NCBI RefSeq assembly: GCF_024346135.1
Contig: NZ_JAGQCJ010000012.1
Span: 1 to 64,000, forward strand
DNA: 64,000 nt
Source of the DNA: Cyanobium sp. CH-040
Lineage (GTDB): Bacteria; Cyanobacteriota; Cyanobacteriia; PCC-6307; Cyanobiaceae
Direction of reading: 5' to 3'
A program made the translations under genes and the position numbers. Under the pieces are notes generated by a model, which was given only the letters and a program-made list of their open reading frames with translations, had not been told where the DNA came from and did not search any database. Each line of letters opens with the position of its first letter. Positions within the stretch are counted from its first letter, which is position 1. Of the stretch, positions 9,131 to 16,776 are shown one piece after another.

Positions 9131-9282
9131 CAGGACCGCCAGCCAACGGCGTCAGGCTATGGCGCCAAGCCCGGCAGGCGGCAGGCCCCGGAGGTGACCG
9201 GGGCTACAGGCCGGCCCGGGTGCTGTTGATGCGCCCTTAACCCGGGCTGCACAGGGTGGGAGAAACGCCCTGCCATCCAGCC

Positions 9283-11785
<2,503 letters not shown>

Positions 11786-11799
<14 letters not shown>

Positions 11800-12067: not shown

Positions 12068-14485
12068 ATGACCTCCACCTTCCAGTCCGTCTCCCTGGTT
12101 GCCTCGACCCCGGCCAGCACCGAGGAGCTGCAGAACATCGACGCCTGGTGGCGGGCTGCCAACTACCTGGCGGTGGGGATGATCTACCTGCGCGACAACC
12201 CGCTGCTGCGGGAGCCGCTGCGCCCCGAGCACATCAAGAGCCGGCTGCTGGGGCACTGGGGGTCGAGTCCGGGGCAGGCCTTCATCTGGGCCCATGCCAA
12301 CCGCCTGATCCGCCAGCGCGACCTGGACATGATCTACCTGTCGGGTCCGGGCCACGGGGCCCCCGGCGTGCTGGCCCCCACCTACCTGGACGGCTCCTAC
12401 AGCGAGATCTATCCGGACAAGTCGCGGGACGCCGAGGGCATGCGGCGCTTCATGAAGCAGTTCTCCTTCCCGGGCCACATCGGCAGCCACTGCACCCCGG
12501 AAACCCCCGGCTCGATCCACGAGGGCGGCGAACTGGGCTACGTGCTCTCCCACGCCTGCGGGGCGGTGTTCGACAACCCAGAGCTGATCGCGATCGCCTG
12601 CGTGGGCGACGGCGAGGCCGAGACCGGGCCCCTGGCCACCAGCTGGCACATCAACAAGTTCCTCAACCCGATCAGCGACGGCGCCGTGCTGCCGGTGCTG
12701 CACCTCAACGGGTACAAGATCGCCAACCCCACCCTGCTGGCGCGCATCCCCCGCGAGGAGCTGGCCAGCCTGATGCGCGGCTACGGCTGGGAGCCCCTGT
12801 TCGTGGAGGGCCACGAGCCCATGGCCATGCACCAGGCCATGGCCGCGGCCATGGACGAGGCGGTGGGCCGCATCCAGCGGATCCGCGCCGAGGCCCGAGC
12901 CAGCGGTGAGGCGGTGCGGCCCGCCTGGCCGATGATCGTGCTGCGCTCCCCCAAGGGCTGGACCGGTCCCCAGGCCCTGGGCGAGAAGAAGATCGAGAAC
13001 TTCTGGCGCGCCCACCAGGTGCCCCTGGCCGCCCCCCAGAGCGATCCGGCCCAGCTGCAGATGCTCGAGGACTGGATGAAGAGCTACCGGCCCTGGGAGC
13101 TCTTCGACGCCAACGGCACCCTGGTGCCGGAGCTGCAGGCGCTTTCCCCCGAAGGCCCGCGCCGCATGGGCTCCAACCCCCATGCCAACGGCGGCCTGCT
13201 GCGCCACAAGCTGCACCTGCCGCCGATCGAGACCTACGCGGTGCCGGTGGAGGCCCCCGGAGCCAGCGAGGCGGAGAACACCTACCCCCTGGGCGAGCTG
13301 CTGCGCGACGCCATCGGCCTCAACCCCGATTCGCTGCGGGTGTTCGGTCCCGATGAAACGGCCTCCAACCGCCTGCAGGCGATCTACGAGGTGAGCAAGA
13401 AGGTGTGGATGGAGGACTTCCTGCCCGAAGACCTCAACGGCAGTGAACTGGCCCGCTCCGGCCGGGTGGTGGAGATGCTCAGCGAGCACACCCTGGTGGG
13501 AATGATGGAGGGCTATCTGCTCACCGGCCGCTACGGCTTCTTCCACACCTACGAGGCCTTCGCCCATGTGATCGCCTCGATGTTCAACCAGCACGCCAAG
13601 TGGCTGGAGAGCTGCATCCACCACGCCCCCTGGCGGGCGCCGATCGGCCCCTGGAACTGCCTGATCTCCAGCACGGTGTGGCGCCAGGACCACAACGGCT
13701 TCACCCACCAGGATCCCGGCTTCATCGATCTGGCCGGCAACAAGAGCGGCGAGGTGGTGCGGGTGTACATGCCCGCGGACGCCAACTGCCTGCTGGCGGT
13801 GGCCGAAGAGGCGCTGCAGGAGCCGAACGTCTGCAACATCATCGTCAGCGACAAGCAGAAGCACCTCCAGTACCTCACCCTGGAGCAGGCCCGCGCCCAC
13901 GTGGCCAAGGGCATCGGCCTGTGGAGCTGGGCCAGCAACGACGACTGCGGCACCGAGCCCGACGAGCCCGATGTGGTGATGGCCTGCGCCGGCGACATCC
14001 CCACCAAGGAGACCCTGGCGGCGGTGGAGATCCTGCGCCGGGAGATTCCCAGGCTGAAGATCCGCGTGCTCAACGTGGTGAAGCTCTTCGCCCTCACCAC
14101 TCCCGAGGAGCATCCCCATGGCCTGAGCGATCGGGACTTCGACAGCCTGTTCACCACCAGTCGCCCGGTGATGTTCAACTTCCATGGCTATCCGTGGCTG
14201 ATCCACCGCCTCACCTACCGGCGCACCAACCACAGCAACATCCACGTGCGCGGCTACAAGGAGAAGGGCAACATCAACACTCCCCTGGAGCTGGCGATGA
14301 ACAACCAGATCGACCGCTACAACCTGGTGATCGATGTGATCGACCGGGTGCCGGGACTGGGCTCACGCTGTGCCCACGTCAAGGAGCGCATGAAGGAGGC
14401 GATCCTCCACCACCGTGCCTATGCCCACGAGCACGGCATGGACGATCCGGCCATCACCCACTGGCGCTGGGGCATCCACGGCTGA
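12068..14485 (+). CDS. xfp: Xylulose-5-phosphate/fructose-6-phosphate phosphoketolase
   Basis: It cleaves xylulose-5-phosphate (and often fructose-6-phosphate) with phosphate, using thiamine diphosphate, to give acetyl-phosphate and an aldose phosphate. The 805 residues are the normal family length. Visible signatures are [19 protein letters not shown] near the N-terminus, [30 protein letters not shown] and the ThDP/Mg motif [14 protein letters not shown] near residue 180. The acetyl-phosphate could feed Pta, whose gene is also in this window. The upstream 110 bases are richer in A/T (a TTAATT element near 12023) and probably hold the promoter. Confidence 0.95.
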
Positions 14486-14620: not shown

Positions 14621-15376
14621 ATGTCCCTGCCCCTGCTCGACAGCCGTCCGACGGCGATCAACGCCCGTGTGGCCAGCTTCCTGCCCGCGGGTGACGAAAC
14701 CCCCCGCCAGGCGGGGGCCAGCCTGGCGGGAGGCACCGAGGCCAGCGACGGCCTGATGGAGCAGGCCTACCGCCAGATCTTCTTCCATGCCTTCAGCGTG
14801 GATCGGGATCCGGTGCTGGAGATGCGCCTGCGCAGCGGTCAGATCAGCGTGCGTGGCTTCATCCGCGGTCTGCTGCTCTCCGACAAGTTCCGCAACGACT
14901 TCTACCGCTGCAACAGCAACTACCGCGTCGTCGAGCAGATCGTCGGCCGCGTGCTGGGCCGGCCTGTGTATGGCGAACAGGAGCGCATCCGCTGGTCGAT
15001 CGTGATCGCCGAACAGGGATTGCCGGCCTTCGTGGACGCCCTGCTCGATTCCCCGGAATACCTGGAAGCCTTCGGCGAAGACCAGGTTCCTTACCAGCGC
15101 TCGCGGGTGCTGGCTGGCCGGGCCGTGGGCACCATGCCCTTCAACCAGCAGGCCCCGCGCTACGACGCCTACTGGCGTGACGTGACCGCCCGGCGCGCTC
15201 CGGCCGGCGGCTCTCCCTGGACCGTGGGCGTGCCGCGGCCGGCCTGGCTGGCGGGCCAGCCCACCCCCCAGGTGCGCAGCCTCTGGCAGGGCATCGTGGC
15301 CACCGGTGGCTTCATCCTCACCGGCCTCGTGCTCTGGACCGCCGCCGCGATGCTCAGCACCGGCGCCCAGGGCTGA
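14621..15376 (+). CDS. cpcL: Phycobilisome rod linker of the membrane-anchored CpcL type
   Basis: The 251-residue protein has a phycobilisome linker domain at about residues 45-175, with AYRQIFFHAFSVDRDPVLEM, SGQISVRGFIRGLLLSDKF and NYRVVEQIVGRVLGRPVYG. Unlike ordinary CpcG rod-core linkers it ends in a hydrophobic span, about residues 223-246 (GIVATGGFILTGLVLWTAAA). That tail is the hallmark of CpcL (formerly CpcG2), which tethers rod-only antennae to the thylakoid membrane, mostly for photosystem I. The gene stands alone here, away from phycocyanin operons. The ATG at 14621 fits the family N-terminus (MSLPLL). Confidence 0.85.
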   Translation: MSLPLLDSRPTAINARVASFLPAGDETPRQAGASLAGGTEASDGLMEQAYRQIFFHAFSVDRDPVLEMRLRSGQISVRGFIRGLLLSDKFRNDFYRCNSNYRVVEQIVGRVLGRPVYGEQERIRWSIVIAEQGLPAFVDALLDSPEYLEAFGEDQVPYQRSRVLAGRAVGTMPFNQQAPRYDAYWRDVTARRAPAGGSPWTVGVPRPAWLAGQPTPQVRSLWQGIVATGGFILTGLVLWTAAAMLSTGAQG

Positions 15377-15432: not shown

Positions 15433-16776
15433 ATGCCTACGGTCCGGGCAGAGGGGTTCGCCGCGATGGGATCGTTCGCATCGGAAGCGGAATCCCTGCC
15501 TGCCATGGCCGCCGCTGGCAGCGGCCGGAACCGCCTGTTCGGCCTGCCGGCGGCCACCGGCCGCTGGCTGCTGCTGCCGCTCGGCACGGTGGCCCACCTG
15601 TGCATGGGCACCGTCTACGCCTGGAGCGTCTTCCGCCAGCCCCTGGAGAAGGCCCTGAGCCTCGGGGCCACCCAGAGCATGCTGCCCTACACGGTGGCGC
15701 TGCTCTGCTTCGCCCTGCTGATGCCGGCGGGTGGCCAGCTGATGCCGCGGCTGGGCCCTCGCCGCGTGATGCTCGTCGGTGGCGCGGTGATGGCGCTGGG
15801 CTATCTGCTGGCCAGCCGCAGCCAGTCCCTCGGCCAGCTGGTGCTCTCCTACGGCGTGATCGTGGGCAGCGGTGTGGGCCTGGCCTACGGGGTGCCCCTG
15901 GCCGTGGCGGCGCGCTGGTTTCCCGATCGGCAGGGCCTGGCGATGGGGCTCGTGGTGCTCGGCTTCGGGCTCTCGCCGCTGATCACCGCCCCGCTGGCCC
16001 ATCGGCTGATCGCCACCCAGGGTCTGGGCAGCACCCTGCAGCTGCTGGGCGTGGCCTTCCTGATGCTGATGGTGACCGTGGCCCTGACCATGGTCCTGCC
16101 GCCGGCCGGCTGGCAGCCGCCACCGGCAACCCGGCGCCGGGACCGGTCCGCCGCCGCGGCTGGCCAGGCGTCCGCCTCGGCCATCACCGCACCCGCCGCA
16201 GCCGCTTTGCCCCTGCGCAGCAGAACGTTCGGGGGGCTGTGGCTGTGCTACGGGCTCGGCGCCCTGCTGGGCCTGAGCGCCATCGGCATCTCCAGTCCCG
16301 TGGGGCTGGAGGTGATCGCCATCGATCCGGCCACGGCGGCGGCCTGCATCTCCCTGTTCGCGGTGTTCAACGGCGCCAGCCGGCCGCTGTTCGGCTGGCT
16401 CTGCGACCGCCTTCGCCCCTGGCAGGTGGCCACCCTGGCCTACCTGCTGGTGCTGGTGGGCAGCCTGATGATGGCGGGCGCCGGTGAAGGCGACCTGCTC
16501 ACGTATCTGGTGGCGTTCAGTCTGTTCTGGGCCAGCCTCGGCGGCTGGCTGGCGATCGCGCCGGCCACCACCCTGCGCTGCTTCGACCCGCAGCGCTATG
16601 CCCAGACCTACGGGCTGGTGTTCACCGCCTACGGGGCCGGTGCCCTGCTCGGCACCCTGATCACCGGTCAGCTGCGCGACTGGTTCGGCTGCTACACCAG
16701 CGCCTTTCTGCCGATGGCCGCCGTGGCCGCTGTCGGCATCGTGCTGGCCAGCCTGCTGCTGCGGGCCAGCCGCTAG
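15433..16776 (+). CDS. MFS transporter, oxalate/formate-antiporter (OFA)-like
   Basis: The 447-residue protein has about 12 hydrophobic spans in two halves joined by a Pro/Arg/Ala-rich loop near 225-260. The segment HLCMGTVYAWSVFRQPLEKA in the first span is typical of the OFA family of the major facilitator superfamily. RLGPRRVML after the second span fits the MFS loop motif. Substrate cannot be told from sequence; OFA members move oxalate, formate, pyruvate or other monocarboxylates. Internal Met codons at residues 12 and 25 could be the true start, since the first 35 residues are unconserved-looking. Confidence 0.8.
   Translation: MPTVRAEGFAAMGSFASEAESLPAMAAAGSGRNRLFGLPAATGRWLLLPLGTVAHLCMGTVYAWSVFRQPLEKALSLGATQSMLPYTVALLCFALLMPAGGQLMPRLGPRRVMLVGGAVMALGYLLASRSQSLGQLVLSYGVIVGSGVGLAYGVPLAVAARWFPDRQGLAMGLVVLGFGLSPLITAPLAHRLIATQGLGSTLQLLGVAFLMLMVTVALTMVLPPAGWQPPPATRRRDRSAAAAGQASASAITAPAAAALPLRSRTFGGLWLCYGLGALLGLSAIGISSPVGLEVIAIDPATAAACISLFAVFNGASRPLFGWLCDRLRPWQVATLAYLLVLVGSLMMAGAGEGDLLTYLVAFSLFWASLGGWLAIAPATTLRCFDPQRYAQTYGLVFTAYGAGALLGTLITGQLRDWFGCYTSAFLPMAAVAAVGIVLASLLLRASR

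Follow-up and report, generated by a model that had tools for sequence, protein, structure and literature searches.

The 64,000-nucleotide stretch of Cyanobium sp. CH-040 DNA analysed here (contig NZ_JAGQCJ010000012.1, positions 1 to 64,000; hereafter the window) includes a gene whose product, to judge from its sequence, is a rod-membrane linker with an architecture like that of CpcL, and which is the cpcGII gene of the Cyanobiaceae. We think it probable that this linker carries core-less phycocyanin rods on the membrane, with photosystem I (PSI) as the likeliest acceptor, and that its combination of anchor and linker domain arose, or was rebuilt, separately from that of Synechocystis CpcL. 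What stands out is the separate linker-domain ancestry of a known kind of anchored linker.

A rod linker domain with a predicted membrane anchor

The reading frame is complete, running from ATG to TGA, and the features of its product are collected in Table 1. The match to the phycobilisome linker domain of Pfam scores 132 bits against a cut-off of 28.7 (E 1.5e-38), and this domain should occupy the cavity of the phycocyanin hexamer nearest the membrane. NCBIfam was set aside as a source of identity, as just the CpcG1-4 models matched, each far under its cut-off; the best-scoring PDB chain of similar length was the rod-core linker 9wg7_A1 (E 2.2e-66). An AlphaFold model built on a 33-row alignment had a mean pLDDT of 64.5 and a pTM of 0.53; the linker domain was modelled well (block means of 68-93 across residues 41-160), residues 1-37 and 161-205 were mostly below 50, and one long C-terminal helix had block means of 59-73. 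The best fold match of the model was the red-algal chain 5y6p_aW (Z 18.7), and it aligned with Synechocystis CpcL (8hfq_n) over 177 residues (Z 17.2, rmsd 3.9). Because it resembles rod-core linkers, rod linkers and Synechocystis CpcL equally well, with Z about 17-18 for CpcG and CpcL alike, the fold cannot tell CpcG from CpcL and was rejected as a means of separating them.

Table 1. Features of the linker gene and its product, in window positions
Feature	Position	Strand	Basis
Coding sequence of membrane-anchored rod linker, 251 aa, cpcGII clade, CpcL-like architecture (anchor predicted)	14621..15376	+	Open reading frame; relatives in genus
PF00427 phycobilisome linker domain, residues 42-160	14744..15100	+	Pfam; fold similarity to chains of CpcG and CpcL (Z about 17-18)
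FFHAF site, residues 54-58; resembles CpcG, the two-residue insertion at Synechocystis CpcL 55-56 being absent	14780..14794	+	Alignment
Pre-membrane motif PAWLAGQP, residues 207-214; P207, W209 and P214 invariant in the A2 alignment	15239..15262	+	Tail comparison
C-terminal helix, residues 216-248, holding the single predicted membrane span	15266..15364	+	AlphaFold model; hydropathy
Hydropathy peak window, residues 225-243	15293-15349	+	Hydropathy 1.82

The peak 19-residue window (IVATGGFILTGLVLWTAAA) is the one window of transmembrane (TM) strength in the protein, and windows that begin upstream of residue 191 reach at most 1.02. The clear hydrophobic C-terminal span claimed in the initial annotation is borne out by this peak and by the predicted helix around it, and a TM span is accordingly a prediction from hydropathy together with a helix of modest pLDDT. 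The tail is hydrophobic to its end, terminating in AMLSTGAQG, and this putative span takes the place of the soluble, core-binding tail ending near VPYR that is found in CpcG rod-core linkers (PDB 7sc7, 7ext, 7eyd, 9wg7).

Conservation of the tail was followed in 78 named loci, a set biased to close relatives because the best 80 of 337 confirmed stretches were retained. All 78 have a hydrophobic tail, with peaks of 1.31-2.38 (at or above 1.6 in 70, between 1.3 and 1.6 in the other 8), against -0.49 to 0.94 in rows chosen for a VPYR-like end (90 rows, 88 distinct proteins); two CpcG-type rows with other ends reached 0.97 and 1.08. The hydrophobic tail is therefore no chance patch. It is also under constraint, with pN/pS of 0.06-0.55 in 11/11 pairs, less so than the linker domain in two of the three pairs that involve the window gene (0.46 and 0.55 in the tail, about 0.2 in the domain).

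Genomic setting, distribution and identity with cpcGII

The gene sits between a phosphoketolase gene and an MFS transporter gene, away from the rod cluster. Upstream lie a glycogen phosphorylase gene (9256-11799) and then the phosphoketolase gene (12068-14485); the MFS gene (15433-16776), next after the linker, scores above the cut-off of an L-lactate transporter model. We considered the phosphoketolase neighbourhood as a functional hint and rejected it: homologues of phosphoketolase (XFP), the MFS gene and genes 16786 and 17467 flank the linker gene in just 4 of the 78 named loci (L038, L039, L040, L072), and because these are the closest relatives of the window locus, the arrangement is a matter of local gene order. 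The observation that the gene stands apart from phycocyanin genes holds for CH-040, in which it lies on contig C4 and the rod genes on C15, C17, C14 and C10, but fails as a general rule, since genes for phycobiliproteins or rod linkers lie in the examined flank of 42/78 named loci, that of WH5701 among them. Proteins of these 42 loci are 59-72% identical to the window protein. No such gene occurs in the flank of the remaining 36, of which 20 extend about 10 kb to either side and encode proteins 66-86% identical; among the 78, it is near the window's own lineage that the linker gene lies outside the rod cluster. In family loci with shorter flanks, 27/40 have phycobiliprotein or rod-linker genes, and the 13 without such neighbours include the CpcG loci L229, L231 and L236.

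Some loci hold more than one anchored linker. Two TM-linker genes occur in one rod cluster in L251 (5001 and 9200), L087 (9977 and 5737), L078, L085 and L100; in L087 and L251 the tail at the end of the second copy's frame lacks a hydrophobic span, likely through a frameshift. Within the genus, G007 (L013, L022) and G012 (L014, L021, L034) each have an additional TM linker, that of G007 lying near phycocyanin genes (L255); a third TM linker of G012 has an in-frame TAG within the aligned stretch. The anchorless CpcG of G007 (L035) has a tail without VPYR and looks frame-shifted.

The assembly of the window genome (2.9 Mb in 27 contigs) has seven PF00427 stretches: the window gene, two CpcC-like linkers that add a CpcD domain (C15 and C17), three stretches in one ApcE-like frame (C26) and one CpcG. 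This last is the second, anchorless CpcG for which the initial annotation proposed a search; it lies at C22:43384-43947, is 252 aa long and ends in VPYRSIGR. Among eight PF00502 matches, two are in the ApcE frame and two beside ApcE read as ApcA and ApcB; the other four scored best in NCBIfam as ApcA-like and ApcB-like (both below cut-off), CpcA (above cut-off; C14) and a CpcB fragment at a contig edge (C10), with phycoerythrin not the best-scoring model for any of these four. Two further proteins are present, one CpcD-like and one PetH-like; the latter includes a CpcD domain and scores 581 bits against a cut-off of 600. Phycocyanin rods capped with FNR are a feature of Synechocystis CpcL rods (PMC10322944), and because rod linkers, CpcA/CpcB and the PetH-like protein are all found here, the parts for such a rod exist in CH-040.

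The anchored rod linker is not peculiar to Cyanobium sp. CH-040. Within the genus, a match at 67% identity or higher exists in 12 of 13 genomes, counting CH-040 itself; G002, which has none, is 78% complete. Across the family, 83/151 Cyanobiaceae genomes have a match at 1e-40, and in 82 of the 83 the copy is TM-ended: in 74 the alignment reaches query residue 240 or further and so spans the anchor, and in eight (G142, G160, G175, G056, G067, G120, G131, G167) the anchor was read in the translation, at hydropathy 1.54-3.12. The one genome without an anchor reading (G165) is left out of the 82. The other 68 of the 151 gave no match at 1e-40, and among 20 of these listed, 19 are of 1.9 Mb or less. 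A record titled as a Bifidobacterium breve MAG (L083) contains a TM linker of cyanobacterial type along with genes for rod linkers and phycocyanin-like proteins, and is either mislabelled or a mixed bin.

The window protein falls in the same all-TM Cyanobiaceae clade (29 rows, 100/99) as the TM-ended copy of Synechococcus WH5701 (L099), to which it is 60% identical. The WH5701 gene adjoins cpcC-cpcB-cpcA-cpcC-cpcB-cpcA homologues, and in PMC2246261 (Table 2) cpcGII of this strain is placed in the rod cluster and cpcGI elsewhere. By sequence, then, the window gene is the Cyanobiaceae cpcGII, known from marine and euryhaline Synechococcus such as WH5701, with the difference that it lies outside the rod cluster and the WH5701 gene inside it. 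The passages on cpcGII in PMC2246261 do not mention a TM span, which is predicted for the window protein.

The same source bears on whether this could be an ordinary rod-core linker CpcG, with a hydrophobic tail that has no anchoring role. By mass spectrometry, CpcGI was detected and CpcGII was not in the isolated phycobilisomes analysed there, although CpcGII had earlier been seen in a phycobilisome fraction of WH8102 (PMC2246261). Absence from isolated phycobilisomes is expected of a protein retained in the membrane and fits an anchored CpcGII; low expression, also named by those authors for its usual absence, could explain it as well. The earlier sighting, the CpcG-like FHAF site and the grouping of the linker domain with Cyanobiaceae CpcG (below) would suit an ordinary CpcG. 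We nevertheless regard that identity as very improbable: the soluble tail ending near VPYR is missing, a hydrophobic tail under constraint is found in every named locus, the genome already has a separate CpcG with the usual tail, and CpcGII escaped detection as described. The initial reading of the gene as a membrane-anchored rod linker is thus supported by the domain, the tail, its conservation and the separate CpcG, the anchor itself being predicted.

Ancestry of the linker domain and of the tail

The linker domain was analysed apart from the anchor (residues 1-186) in an unrooted tree of 112 rows, comprising 111 of the 171 rows of a quick tree together with Synechocystis CpcL. From the 171, 42 near-copies were removed, as were 18 rows on long or odd branches, both TM-ended (L259, L242, L150, L213, L176, L169, L228, L195, L194, L227, L232, L239) and anchorless by a hydropathy cut of 1.5 (L186, L145, L214, one L085 row, L210, L215). 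A third tree, with Anabaena-type CpcL added, dropped eight further rows and added two relative to the 112-row tree. The class-level rows, 100 in number, were chosen by hand among the matches listed.

In the 112-row tree Synechocystis CpcL belongs to a separate all-TM clade of 28 rows (100/96), which lies inside a larger group of anchorless CpcG, and the Cyanobiaceae TM linkers and Cyanobiaceae CpcG stand together on one side of a 99/92 branch. With Anabaena-type CpcL included in the sampling of the third tree, a 99/92 branch again sets the 40 rows of Cyanobiaceae TM linkers and CpcG to one side. One joint clade of the two TM groups was rejected by the AU test (p 2.2e-5, lnL difference 72), for groups that were named after seeing the unrooted tree. 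Three TM linkers (L230, L235, L243) lie beside CpcG in the 112-row tree, and the AU test does not reject their union in one clade with the other Cyanobiaceae TM linkers (p 0.47). The minimum number of changes of TM label was 6 in the quick tree of 171 rows, starred branches forcing 4 of these, and 4 in the 112-row tree (3 forced); in the third tree the minimum needed by the anchorless group was 5 (5 forced).

An indel agrees with this tree as an independent character, because a two-residue insertion (N55-E56 of Synechocystis CpcL) is present in the CpcL clade and absent from Cyanobiaceae TM rows. It occurs in 28/28 CpcL-clade rows and in L152, that is in all 29 TM rows from outside the family, compared with 0/32 Cyanobiaceae TM rows, 0/10 Cyanobiaceae CpcG and 6/41 other CpcG; the window protein is without it. 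A TM row of another family that was outside the insertion alignment (L150) likewise has no insertion and a CpcG-like site; the quick tree places it apart from the CpcL clade, and it was not among the rows of the 112-row tree.

We infer that the linker domain of the window protein shares its ancestry with the anchorless CpcG of the Cyanobiaceae and not with the Synechocystis CpcL clade. Since this points to CpcG ancestry of the domain, a CpcL-like protein may have arisen in the Cyanobiaceae separately, or been rebuilt there by a domain/tail swap. The name CpcL-type given to the gene at the outset holds as a description of architecture and is not supported for the descent of the linker domain, the domain being placed outside the Synechocystis CpcL clade by the tree, the AU test and the insertion. 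Clustering with ordinary CpcG had also been named at the outset as one half of what would speak against an anchored linker, and for the linker domain such clustering was found. Such grouping does not remove a CpcL-like role, because the same is seen in a relative of Anabaena CpcL: the Anabaena-type, anchored CpcL of L304 and the anchorless CpcG next to it are sisters in the domain tree (100/99).

The tail may have had another history. Tail profiles were made from groups sorted by eye (50 Cyanobiaceae tails, without L259 and L237; 16 of a W-PP type, found on part of the CpcL side; and 7 and 6 of two other TM types), leaving out L169, L176, L194, L195 and L208. The Cyanobiaceae profile matched the W-PP tails at a score of 32.1 over 33 columns, with 0/200 column shuffles as high, compared with 8.8 and 10.0 for the two other types; with the most similar tails left out, the match became borderline (3/150 and 4/150 shuffles as high). 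This W-PP match argues against a wholly independent anchor, for groups that were picked by eye and with less force after the exclusion. The Anabaena CpcL tail gave no homology signal with any of the other tails (probability 2 with the Cyanobiaceae profile). Among the TM rows of the Synechocystis CpcL clade itself there are at least three tail types without mutual match (L171, L185, L188, L191; L178, L189, L190, L193).

The anchor may, on these tail and domain comparisons, be shared between the Cyanobiaceae and W-PP proteins while the domain is not, which would mean either a domain/tail swap or gene conversion with a local CpcG. If conversion, the protein could be a true CpcL by descent, which retained its anchor while its linker domain came to resemble that of the local CpcG, so that the domain tree misleads. 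The W-PP match, stronger than that to the other TM tail types, is in keeping with such a descent, as is the Anabaena-type CpcL placed beside the adjacent CpcG in the tree. Other rows also show tail and domain with different histories: L150 and L152 have tails that match W-PP tails (probability 99.5) and domains outside the CpcL clade; the same two tails match the Cyanobiaceae tails at a probability of only 6. As the tail match is fragile once the most similar sequences are left out, and as linker domain and indel both agree with CpcG ancestry, we hold a CpcL by descent to be rather doubtful, if worth serious consideration. Frequent gain or loss of the anchor has already been suggested (PMC10053587).

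Proposed function and comparison with known anchored linkers

Returning to a CpcL-like linker that has a domain of CpcG ancestry, we propose that its N-terminal PF00427 domain would, by homology and fold, sit in the base of a phycocyanin rod, and that the predicted C-terminal helix would cross the thylakoid membrane, replacing the core-binding tail of CpcG. Upon insertion into the membrane, the linker domain would lie on the cytoplasmic side, with R219 just before the span. Lacking the usual tail, a rod built on cpcGII would not dock in that way on an allophycocyanin core and would remain at the membrane, core-less; core-less phycocyanin rods tethered to thylakoids are most likely what the window protein builds.

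Synechocystis PCC 6803 CpcL (CpcG2; PDB 8hfq) combines PF00427 with a C-terminal TM span, as the window protein is predicted to do, and is described as PSI-associated (PMC10322944). Anabaena PCC 7120 CpcL (CpcG3; PDB 9wd5) is similarly TM-ended and was found in PSI fractions of heterocysts (PMC11165356). Its domain was represented in our tree by that of L304, which has a similar tail and groups with anchorless CpcG, not with Synechocystis CpcL; unlike the window protein, L304 has the insertion (NEQE), and the Anabaena tail is unmatched by the Cyanobiaceae profile. By analogy with these two proteins, the tethering of rods to PSI is plausible, and energy would pass to PSI as the likeliest acceptor. 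Membrane rods serving photosystem II (PSII), NDH-1 or another complex would have in their favour that PSI contact is not known for the Cyanobiaceae lineage, that no match links the tail to that of Anabaena CpcL, and that the CpcL rods of Acaryochloris are said to be associated with both PSI and PSII (PMC9415938); we consider them unlikely, given that in Synechocystis and Anabaena the linkers with a TM end have been reported in association with PSI.

That such linkers have been studied mainly in Synechocystis and Anabaena fits the literature consulted, with the qualification that a cpcL of Cyanobium (PMC13342260) and cpcGII of Synechococcus (PMC2246261) are in print. The former belongs to the phycoerythrin-rich Cyanobium sp. 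NIVA-CYA 375, for which the authors inferred rod-shaped phycobilisomes (PMC13342260); we liken it to the window gene, also of a Cyanobium, by description and not by sequence. CpcL was reported in 42/65 cyanobacteria (PMC9415938), and PMC10161378 notes two cpcG copies in freshwater strains, citing Synechocystis for their PSII and PSI roles. Our limited literature search found, among the matches listed, no publication calling marine Synechococcus CpcGII a CpcL, nor did it find a family-wide census, a link of cpcGII to the anchored class or a separate linker-domain lineage.

More tentatively, and with somewhat less than even confidence, we suggest that a second kind of rod, anchored in the membrane, occurs in nearly all picocyanobacteria that have phycobilisomes, marine Synechococcus among them, and that the linker of this rod is a chimera or re-invention that joins a CpcG-lineage domain to a CpcL-like anchor and is without several of the bilin contacts of Synechocystis CpcL. 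If this is true, the little-understood cpcGII of marine and freshwater Synechococcus/Cyanobium would encode a rod-membrane linker, and alongside classical phycobilisomes these abundant picocyanobacteria should possess phycobilin-fed membrane rods, with PSI as the probable partner. More than one origin of PSI antennae would follow, one such antenna being at work across the ocean, unrecognised, and 'CpcL' would be a role reached along separate lineages, not one family.

The bilin contacts themselves differ between the two proteins. In Synechocystis CpcL, N55, Q57 and Q58 contact the membrane-side bilin (PMC10322944); the window protein is without N55 and has F55, H56, S161 and Q177 in place of Q57, Q58, R163 and R178, while R16, R112, R169, R181 and Y182 are common to both. 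Isolated Synechocystis CpcL rods have an emission peak at 668 nm (PMC10322944). The red shift of the Synechocystis rod is attributed by its authors to the turn L136-P137-x-F139 (PMC10322944), the residues of which correspond to L134, P135 and F137 of the window protein (turn L134-P135-A-F137). The TM rows of the Cyanobiaceae, with N55/Q57/Q58 in 0/32 and a variable P137 turn, would offer a natural test of the linker residues behind the red emitter of CpcL rods. The equivalent of P137 is present in the window protein and eight other Cyanobiaceae TM rows (9/32), not in the other 23, and in 2/29 TM rows from outside the family; we rejected it as a mark of the CpcL class.
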